Shown here piece after piece: positions 15,282-17,809 of a DNA stretch of 64,000 bases; the first letter of the stretch is position 1; each line of letters starts with the position of its first letter. The position numbers and the translations under genes are program-made. Source of the stretch: Rhodococcus sp. OK302 (lineage in GTDB: Bacteria; Actinomycetota; Actinomycetes; Mycobacteriales; Mycobacteriaceae); NCBI RefSeq assembly GCF_002245895.1, contig NZ_NPJZ01000001.1, forward strand, positions 5,951,582-6,015,581, read 5' to 3'. The notes beneath the pieces were generated by a model that worked only from the letters and a program-made list of their open reading frames with translations, was not told the DNA's origin and did not search any database.

Positions 15282-15479
15282 TTATCTACGGCTCTGACTC
15301 AGTGGTTCTTCGAGATCGAGCGCGAGGTCGCTACCGGAGTGCAGTTCACCGACTTCGGTTTTGAGGATCCGCATCGACCTGCCCAATCCCCGGGCTGCGT
15401 CGGGCAGCTTCTTCGAACCGAACAACACCAGCAGCACAACGGCAACGATTGCCCAGTGGGTTGGGCTGAGCGCACCCAT
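15282..15479 (-). CDS. tatA: Twin-arginine translocase subunit TatA
   Basis: 65 residues: one N-terminal membrane helix (THWAIVAVVLLVLFGSKKLP) with the characteristic FGxKKLP hinge, then an amphipathic helix (DAARGLGRSMRILKTEV) and a short acidic tail. TatA forms the pore of the Tat pathway, exporting folded cofactor-containing proteins. The gene overlaps the stop of the exported RidA-like gene by one base (TGATG), and the next gene upstream encodes an oxidase with a Tat signal. This TatA may therefore be dedicated to that cargo. No tatC or tatB lies in the window. Confidence 0.92.
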   Translation of the reverse strand: MGALSPTHWAIVAVVLLVLFGSKKLPDAARGLGRSMRILKTEVGELHSGSDLALDLEEPLSQSRR

Positions 15480-16150
15480 CAGGCGGGTTCCTTACCTTCG
15501 GGGTACACGGCGTCGACCTCGACCTCGACGAGCCACCCCGCTACCGGTAGTCCGGCAACTTCGAGCGCGAAGCGAGTGGGTCGGGCGCTGTTCCGTTCGA
15601 TCGGTGCAATTGGTGCCGCCGTCCCCATCGGAACCAACTCCGTGTCCCCGGTATCGAGGTTCGTGTTAGCGAAGAACTGCCGGTAGGCGCGATTCCATCC
15701 CGCGTAGTCGGCTTTGTCCGCACCCGGTGCGTTGTCGAGGAATACTCGCATAGTGACGACGTCTTCAAGACTCAGACCTTGGGCTTCGAGATTGTCGCGA
15801 ATCTTCTTGAGTACGTTGATGCCTTGAGCCTCGGTGACGCTCACTCCGGCCGGCAGAACTCCGCCCGAGAACTGAGAGTCGATATACGACTCGGGAGAGC
15901 CTTCGGGTGCGGTCTTGTTTCCGGCCGACGGTCCGATACCACTGGTCTTGTACATCGCGGTGTCACTACCGATTGCCACACCCTGTGCGATCATCGGATT
16001 CGCTTGTCCGGCTTCGAGTACCGACTTCGAGACGAAGGAACTCTTGACGGTATCTGCTTCAGCTGTGTCCGTTGTGCAGGCGGTGGCCGTGCTGAGCACG
16101 ACTGTGGCAGCGAATGCAGCAGCGACAATTTTGGTGGTGCGAGATTTCAT
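15479..16150 (-). CDS. Exported RidA-family (YjgF) protein, probable lipoprotein
   Basis: 223 residues. An N-terminal signal ends in VVLSTATAC, a lipobox-like site with Cys at 25. The mature part is a RidA fold: NPMIAQGVAIGSDTAMYKTS at the start and RPTRFALEVAGLPVAGWLVE near residues 190-209. The arginine at 193 aligns with the carboxylate-binding Arg of imine-hydrolysing RidA (motif R-x4-V-x2-LP), so activity is plausible. RidA enzymes hydrolyse 2-imino acids to keto acids and ammonia; these are exactly the first products of the neighbouring oxidase. Most RidA proteins are cytoplasmic, so this exported form is unusual. Overlaps tatA by one base; follows the oxidase gene by 54 bases. Confidence 0.85.
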   Translation of the reverse strand: MKSRTTKIVAAAFAATVVLSTATACTTDTAEADTVKSSFVSKSVLEAGQANPMIAQGVAIGSDTAMYKTSGIGPSAGNKTAPEGSPESYIDSQFSGGVLPAGVSVTEAQGINVLKKIRDNLEAQGLSLEDVVTMRVFLDNAPGADKADYAGWNRAYRQFFANTNLDTGDTELVPMGTAAPIAPIERNSARPTRFALEVAGLPVAGWLVEVEVDAVYPEGKEPA

Positions 16151-16204
16151 GGTGTGCTCCTCGGAAAAGGTGATTGATGGAGACGGCCTGCTGCGCGGTC
16201 CGCG

Positions 16205-17809
16205 CTATGCGTCTTGCGCAACACGCTGGTGGAGGTGAGTGACGACGTCCTGCGCCGACGTGAAAGCCCCGTGCTGCCAAGCGATTGCGTTCGAGAGGTG
16301 ATCGCCGGCGAAGTAGATTCGATCGACAGGTTCAAGCAACTTCGTGTATTCGGGAGTTGCGACGCCACCGTGGGAATCTCCCGCACCGGCCCAGGACGCC
16401 CAGGCCGACTCCGAGTACTTGGTACGTCGCCAACTGCCCGAGAAGGAAGAAGAAATATCGCGGGTGTACTTCTCTCCGTGGATCTCCGACCCCTCGGCAA
16501 TAGCCTTGGCCAGCCTTTGGCGGTGAGTCAGTGATTCGAATGCCTGCTGACGCTTGCCCGAACTGTAGTAGGCGACAACAATTCCCCGGTCGGAATTGAA
16601 ATGGTCGTAGGGGAACATGATCTGAGAAATATCGCGGTCGGTGTTGGACGCACCGCCGTAGATGCGGTCTTCCGTCTCCCACCAACGACGCGAGTACTCT
16701 ATGCCAAGTTTGCCTGACGAACTCGGCTTGGCTGCATCCAATGCCAGCAGAATATCGGCCGGCAGATTGTTGTCCAGCCGCTTGATCAGGTGTGGCGGAA
16801 TGGTGCAGATTGCGAACTCGGCCGTGATCGACTTGGCCTTGCCGTCTACGACGTAGTCGACGGTTACTCCCTCGGGCACGTTCTTCATTCCGCTTACCTC
16901 GGCACCGAATTCGATGTTCTCCATACCGATTGCGTCTTGGAACTTGTAGTAGATCCGGTCCATTCCGCCGACAGGAGTCATCATCGTCATGGCTTGGTCG
17001 TAGCCGAATTCGAAGGAGAAGGCCCGTCCGATTCCACCCTGGATGACATCACTCATGCCGAACGGTTCGATTTGAGTGCCGAAGTTCAGGCCGGCACCGG
17101 GCTCGGCAGAATGGCCACGGCGCGACGATCCGACGTAGCGTCCGTCACTGGACAGGTCACCGAAGTCCTTGAGGAACGACGACAGCGCTTCCTTGTCGTC
17201 CTTGCTCAGGACTTGGTCGAGAGCACCCTGATTGGTGGCCTTCTGCAGCAGTTCCGACATGTACCCGTAGGTGTCGGCCTTGGCTGCACGGTAGGTGATC
17301 GACTGGTTGGCAAGAGGTTTGGTGCCGGTGTAGTTGACCATCGTGTTGGCATTCTGGTTGCCGAACATCTGGAGTTCGACGCCCAGTTCACGGCAGTAGT
17401 CGACGGTGATGTGGTTCTGTGGAATTCGGGTGGCCCCGAGATTGTAGAAATGCCCCTCGGAGAACGTGCAGGTTTGGGTCTCACCGCCCAGGTCCGTCTC
17501 CTGGGTTCCGTTGCGGATGGACCAGACTCGCCCGCCCGGTCGAGTGCGCGCTTCGAGGACGGTGACCTTGTATCCGGCCTTCTGCAATTCGTAGGCCGAG
17601 CACAATCCGGCGGGGCCGCCGCCGAGGATGACGACGGAGTGGCTGCCCTTGACTTGCCCGATGAGGTCGCCTGCCGCCGGCGCTTGAAAACGACGCGGGG
17701 TCGCCGATGCTGCCGGTGCCAAACCGATGGAGGACATCGCCCCGAGCGCAAGGCCCGCGCCGCCGGTGATACCGAGACTGCGCATGAAAGATCTACGTGT
17801 GTATGCCAA
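16205..17809 (-). CDS. Tat-exported FAD-dependent L-amino acid oxidase / amine oxidase
   Basis: I choose the TTG at 17809: GGGAG lies 6 bases upstream and the product, 534 residues, then begins [17 protein letters not shown], a proper twin-arginine signal (TRRSFM) with a hydrophobic stretch ending in ASATP. The frame is open to 17947, but that adds 46 residues with an unlikely N-terminus. The Rossmann FAD site is [18 protein letters not shown] (about residues 58-76), followed by [12 protein letters not shown], the GG-motif of flavin amine oxidases. [10 protein letters not shown] and the C-terminal [22 protein letters not shown]-binding motif complete the fold. It resembles R. opacus L-amino acid oxidase (made as a precursor with a leader). 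It oxidises L-amino acids or amines to imines plus peroxide; substrate is inferred. Confidence 0.85.

Follow-up and report, generated by a model that had tools for sequence, protein, structure and literature searches.

In Rhodococcus sp. OK302, an actinobacterium of the family Mycobacteriaceae, a run of three minus-strand genes joins an L-amino acid oxidase, a protein of the Rid family and a TatA component of the twin-arginine translocation (Tat) system (Table 1). The run lies in a stretch of 64,000 nucleotides of contig NZ_NPJZ01000001.1 (positions 5,951,582 to 6,015,581), which as a whole is called the window; positions below are those of the window unless a locus of a relative is named. The places of the genes, the spacing of 54 nucleotides between oxidase and Rid, and the single base shared by the Rid stop and the tatA start (TGATG) are all as the original prediction for this DNA had given them. 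Each of the three starts is preceded by a purine-rich, ribosome-site-like stretch, and the genes are probably read as a single transcript; scans for promoters and terminators returned nothing clearly exceeding shuffles. For the oxidase, the TTG start is preferred over a GTG at 17947 because in a relative (locus L036) an in-frame stop directly precedes the equivalent codon.

Table 1. Features of the oxidase-Rid-tatA locus and of the genes divergent from it
Feature	Position in window	Strand	Remarks
L-amino acid oxidase, Tat-type	16205..17809	-	534 aa from TTG; Pfam Amino_oxidase 3.2e-40
Rid3-type imine deaminase, predicted exported lipoprotein	15479..16150	-	223 aa; Pfam PF01042 (Ribonuc_L-PSP) 6.8e-12
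Predicted lipoprotein-type signal peptide of Rid	16076..16150	-	Cys25 at +1
Arg193 codon, catalytic Rid Arg	15572..15574	-	By alignment
Glu209 codon, conserved Rid Glu	15524..15526	-	By alignment
tatA, second TatA of the genome	15282..15479	-	65 aa; PF02416 (TatA_B_E) 6.9e-16
Amino acid permease (APC), divergent from the operon	18025..19551	+	PF13520
IclR-type regulator	19551..20303	+	PF01614 and PF09339

Judged from its sequence, the oxidase is closely related to the L-amino acid oxidase of Rhodococcus opacus, whose structure is solved (2jae): the two align with 942 bits over 489 residues, and residues 92-580 of the long reading of the frame correspond to residues 1-489 of 2jae, such that the whole mature enzyme is covered. 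At the N-terminus, TRRSFM stands ahead of a hydrophobic stretch and is kept in relatives, which under the twin-arginine motif rule makes it a Tat signal. The earlier assignment to the Tat-signal, L-amino acid oxidase type is upheld on both counts.

The second gene fits the subfamily Rid3 and not RidA, as which it had been described. Against the curated profile TIGR00004 (cut-off 106.25 bits) it scores 28.6 bits, far short of that threshold, which speaks against the RidA subfamily. The only solved chains found with the single Rid sequence at E 0.001 are PSPTO3006 and PFL1385, both named Rid3 in PMC5619798, and the same two are the top Foldseek entries for an AlphaFold model of the Rid that rests on an alignment of 116 sequences and has a pLDDT (predicted local distance difference test) of 91 over residues 40-223; a first model on 15 sequences, with a pLDDT of 45, was discarded in its favour. 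In the published Rid3 pattern the Arg and Glu are retained and the Tyr is replaced by Ile (PMC4433059). Arg193, the catalytic residue that the original prediction rightly listed as kept, is invariant together with Glu209 in the 116 aligned sequences and also in a set of 12 across three phyla, and Arg193 aligns with the Rid Arg of solved imine deaminases, Glu209 with the Glu of solved Rids. Ile54 is conserved in at least 90% of the 116 sequences and in 11 of 12 rows lines up with an Ile of the proteobacterial Rids that corresponds in turn to the Tyr of TdcF; the equivalence of Ile54 and Tyr comes from a two-step alignment and is somewhat less sure. Published residue criteria and nearest solved structures therefore agree on Rid3, and the residue pattern of PSPTO_3006 and PFL_1385 (9bka and 9bkc), the nearest sequences and folds, is shared: Arg and Glu are present, and Ile stands in place of Tyr. 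What distinguishes the Rhodococcus Rid is an insertion of about 22 residues ahead of the catalytic Arg, which is missing from the Rids of other phyla. For two other Rid3 proteins, PMC5619798 reports that free imines from L-amino acid oxidase are cut in vitro, the rate of semicarbazone formation falling with either protein from 46 to 2 for L-Leu and from 21 to 3 for L-Phe; by analogy, the Rhodococcus Rid may well be an active imine deaminase.

Oxidase and Rid form a conserved pair. Within the genus, 23 of 28 genomes (OK302 included) have Rid and exactly these have the oxidase, and because of this co-occurrence the arrangement is not a matter of chance; the two genes are adjacent by coordinates in 22 of the 23, the remaining genome (G004) having them on broken contigs. 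Across the order, Rid was found in three of 298 genomes, one of them the window's own. A survey of 394 genomes of the class, with no more than a few candidates scored in each, found the oxidase family in 39 (E 1e-70) and Rid in 24 (E 1e-12), and in all 24 an oxidase adjoins the Rid, by coordinates in 23 and as pieces in one (G516); some of these genomes carry another copy of the oxidase at a separate site. Scanning species genomes supplied a further set, the best 80 of 391 relatives, here called the named loci, some of which come from genomes of the genus survey as well. At 77 of the 80 an oxidase lies directly upstream on the same strand, split over two frames at L077; at L046, L072 and L107 the Rid is 30-133 nucleotides from the edge of the stretch and the upstream gene is not visible; Rhodococcus, Nocardia, Pseudonocardia, Kribbella, Arthrobacter, Nocardioides, Kineococcus, Actinoplanes and Nonomuraea are among the genera represented. 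The search for this gene order across actinobacteria, envisaged in the original prediction, makes the oxidase-Rid pair the conserved core of the operon, and the idea that the order belongs to this strain only is rejected on the strength of the genus and named-locus counts.

Irregular copies occur at three of these loci. At L115, the locus of genome G516, the pieces of oxidase next to Rid are in several frames. In Pseudonocardia sp. CNS-139 (L077) the oxidase, permease and regulator are each in two pieces, which points to assembly quality; and a plasmid of Pseudonocardia alaniniphila (L063) has two oxidase copies (2182-3735 and 6310-7863), with the Rid behind the second.

The Rid also carries an export signal of its own, and this part of the earlier description stands where the name RidA does not. 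Signals were recognised by scripted rules together with inspection by eye. The N-terminus of the window Rid is accepted as an export signal by script as well, and it has a lipobox-like site, LSTATAC, whose Cys25 is invariant in 15 homologues. Under the lipobox rule for bacterial lipoproteins the signal appears to be of the lipoprotein type, and the protein is probably lipidated. OK302 has six Rid genes, and this is the only one in which an export signal is seen when the N-termini are read by eye. Signals are present in 79 of the 80 named actinobacterial Rids, 77 by script and two by eye (L078 and L080), the one locus without an assignment being L107, where the Rid start is unreadable; all 79 are of the lipobox or the cleavage-site type. 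Among the 77 scored by script, 46 have a lipobox-like Cys (L035-L077, L105, L083 and L089), 44 of them in the group formed by Rhodococcus, Nocardia and Pseudonocardia, and the other 31 comprise 28 with no Cys in the signal region and three with another Cys. The lipoprotein signal sets the Rhodococcus Rid apart from PSPTO_3006 and PFL_1385. In the solved PFL1385 chain (9bkc chain A) the core is preceded by LLFAASSSWAAG, a stretch resembling the tail of a signal peptide; nothing comparable is seen for the PSPTO3006 chain in the alignments examined, and the terms for location and export that were looked for in the Rid3 assay paper PMC5619798 do not occur there.

Exported Rids extend beyond the Actinobacteria. 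A set of 16 plasmid Rid loci (L132-L137 and L140-L149) represents 15 of 23 records, near-copies being omitted, together with Nonomuraea. A clear export signal is found at 11 of the 16 (the one in Comamonas being a lipobox signal located ahead of the annotated start); three more, both Komagataeibacter loci and Sulfitobacter W074, are signal-like with no intact start or frame, and two have no visible signal (L144, which matches only from query residue 47, and L149, which lies behind an insertion element). An oxidase is near the Rid at nine of the 16 (partial at L142, about 3 kb away at L147), and at six of these nine a cytochrome c gene stands between the two, the order on proteobacterial plasmids being oxidase-cytochrome c-Rid. 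On a Metabacillus plasmid (L140, 2887-6150) an oxidase, a signal-bearing Rid, tatA and tatC follow one another in one run, and a simple rule finds a signal-like N-terminus in 116 of the 120 relatives of the Metabacillus Rid that were listed (120 of 733). In Proteus mirabilis (L145, 1967-3926) an exported Rid begins 40 nucleotides after a twin-arginine L-amino acid deaminase that aligns with 5fjm at 960 bits and belongs to Pfam DAO, not Amino_oxidase. Because this partner is from an unrelated flavoprotein family, the Rid seems to follow the chemistry and not one gene, and the Proteus pairing is the best single argument for Rid acting on the imine. Plasmids of Mesorhizobium and Deinococcus (L138 and L139) have an oxidase and cytochrome c with no annotated Rid alongside; the cytochrome c at these two loci hints at an electron acceptor other than oxygen. 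As a separate observation, an Endoribonuclease L-PSP is listed in the excerpts of PMC12502724 among proteins released by Asaia bogorensis.

The third gene is a canonical tatA, at 87.8 bits to the NCBIfam TatA equivalog NF001854 (cut-off 72) and 57.7 bits to PF02416 (cut-off 21). The genome holds three TatA/B-type genes, with the housekeeping TatA at another place, flanked by pafC and tatC. TatA adjoins Rid in 21 of the 23 genus genomes that have Rid; in a profile search of the named loci it is present at 24 of 80, each time directly after Rid. A dedicated TatA as part of the core, as the original prediction had it, is consequently rejected for Actinobacteria at large on the count of 24 of 80: the gene is there, and it is accessory to the oxidase-Rid pair. 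The recurrence of a Tat link in another phylum, in Metabacillus, makes that link plausible all the same. On a tree whose 42 lipoprotein-group rows include the window, the presence of TatA needs four changes, where shuffles need 13.8 on average and none of 500 is as low as four; so few changes mean either an old gain with losses or few gains. In Rhodococcus jostii NBRC 16295 (L046, 3-872, and L025) the Rid frame continues into TatA without a stop, a fusion that amounts to a one-base difference and may be a sequencing error.

From these genes and their associations we think it likely that the operon is an extracytoplasmic L-amino acid deamination unit. The Tat system would export the folded flavin oxidase, which would turn external L-amino acids into hydrogen peroxide and 2-imino acids; the Rid3 protein would exit by the general route, in this group to be held by a lipid anchor on the membrane's outer face, and would hydrolyse the imino acids on site to keto acids and ammonia; and TatA, encoded by the last gene, would most likely give the oxidase more Tat capacity when the operon is on. 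The oxidase and Rid steps rest on family knowledge and strong gene linkage; we infer the location of Rid outside the cytoplasm, the oxidase's imine as its substrate, and the role of TatA. A possible benefit would be faster ammonia release, or protection of the oxidase and the envelope.

Several observations weigh against such a unit. The targets of RidA known so far are cytoplasmic, and imino acids hydrolyse in water unaided (PMC5619798); both points leave an extracellular benefit uncertain. In the class, 16 of the 39 oxidase genomes have no such Rid (by genome search and within 5-7 kb around one oxidase each), and Rid is for this reason dispensable to such oxidases: the dependence seen in this sample is of Rid on the oxidase and not the other way round. 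TatA is absent at 56 of the 80 named loci. Only nine of the 16 plasmid Rid loci are near an oxidase, with one more, that of Proteus, beside an unrelated deaminase; and in Bosea and Cupriavidus an exported Rid occurs with no flavin oxidase among the annotated genes and the frames scanned.

The same data bear on other explanations. The Rid might be a structural partner that attaches to the oxidase and serves to tether or stabilise it at the membrane, imine hydrolysis being secondary; PMC5053998 cites a Chlamydomonas periplasmic oxidase with a non-catalytic Rid-type beta subunit, and the lipid-anchor signal of the Rhodococcus/Nocardia/Pseudonocardia group would suit a tether. Oxidase and Rid distances also correlate, with r at 0.93 over 50 rows and at 0.83 when the lipoprotein group, 42 rows, is taken by itself (L046, L072 and L077, which have no whole oxidase, were left out of the tree, and eight of the 36 loci of the other group were taken), but this does not discriminate between the readings because linked genes correlate anyway, and linked inheritance alone would suffice. 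A partner of this kind appears unlikely to us, given that all 116 aligned sequences keep the catalytic Arg and Glu, that the script finds no lipobox in 31 of the 77 named Rids, and that the Proteus Rid is partnered by an unrelated enzyme. Very improbable is a Rid that shields cytoplasmic enzymes dependent on pyridoxal 5'-phosphate (PLP) in the manner of RidA, its apparent signal being an annotation quirk or a remnant. The RidA paradigm (PMC4433059) and the two signal-less plasmid relatives, one without the N-terminal part and one behind an insertion element, would accord with it, but two chemical types of signal are kept across phyla, the other five Rids of the genome show no signal by eye, and the partner oxidase is itself exported.

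For TatA, it is a real possibility, if somewhat short of an even chance, that a duplicate landed in the operon and merely enlarges the general TatA pool, with no dedication to the oxidase. This is in keeping with the equivalog match of a canonical TatA, with its absence from 56 of 80 loci, and with a history of four tree changes that reads as an old gain with losses or as few gains; yet TatA is retained in all 17 members of the window's clade (window included) and in 21 of 23 genus genomes, its start overlaps or closely follows the Rid stop, and in Metabacillus tatA and tatC occupy the same position. The TatA paralogues of Campylobacter, moreover, differ in substrate needs according to the excerpts of PMC4148689.

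Parts of this picture have precedents. In Bacillus subtilis, TatAdCd is encoded beside phoD and is a Tat component linked to a substrate. TatA1 and TatA2 of Campylobacter (PMC4148689) are likewise a case of an extra Tat component with particular substrates, as proposed here; what distinguishes Rhodococcus from both is that its tatA is inside the gene run of the putative substrate, behind Rid, any specificity being putative. A unit of this kind, of which the original prediction had seen no description, is not wholly unknown: three related accounts are in print. Gene clusters of Rid and flavin adenine dinucleotide (FAD) amine oxidases, with imine hydrolysis proposed, were noted by Niehaus 2015 (PMC4433059), in whose paper the terms signal, periplasm, lipoprotein, localisation and extracellular are absent and secretion or export appears in the references only. 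The lao-cccA-ridA operon of Gluconacetobacter diazotrophicus (PMC5053998) joins a Rid gene to one for an oxidase that has a Tat signal and resembles the R. opacus enzyme, and lao and ridA are reported to co-occur in 19 other genomes; it differs in having a cytochrome c where Rhodococcus has TatA, and export of the Rid goes unmentioned in the excerpts. In Chlamydomonas, LAO1 and LAO2/RIDA (PMC10805672) are an extracytoplasmic oxidase and a periplasmic Rid of one gene cluster, a pair that differs in being eukaryotic, in having no Tat link and in that the Rid is termed putative in the available text. Searches of an open-licence library, outside which most subscription papers lie, turned up no account of an exported bacterial Rid3 with an oxidase or of a tatA in such an operon.

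Were it to hold more widely, the pairing would offer Rid3 both a place, outside the cytoplasm, and a source of substrate in Tat-exported enzymes that oxidise amino acids. For the broader proposition that much of Rid3 consists of extracytoplasmic imine deaminases for flavoenzymes that are exported, oxidise L-amino acids and come from more than one family, with the pair in some lineages accompanied by Tat components of its own as a self-exporting unit, we see the balance as even. If true, there would be Rid proteins with a role unrelated to guarding cytoplasmic PLP enzymes, and the general picture of Rid as such a guard would be called into question. The oxidase and Rid could also be a ready enzyme pair for keto acid production.

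Among the surroundings of the operon, the divergent permease recurs beside the oxidase-Rid pair at relatives' loci in the Rhodococcus/Nocardia/Pseudonocardia group and in Microlunatus (L082), and the IclR-type regulator is retained together with it. Between tatA and a cold-shock gene, positions 15205-15248 hold a long inverted repeat with T-runs on both strands, which by eye is a two-way terminator and is not listed by the terminator scan. Regulator genes adjoin the operon at 11451-14020; GAF and ANTAR domains are present in the gene product of 13232-14020, and the others are similar by eye.

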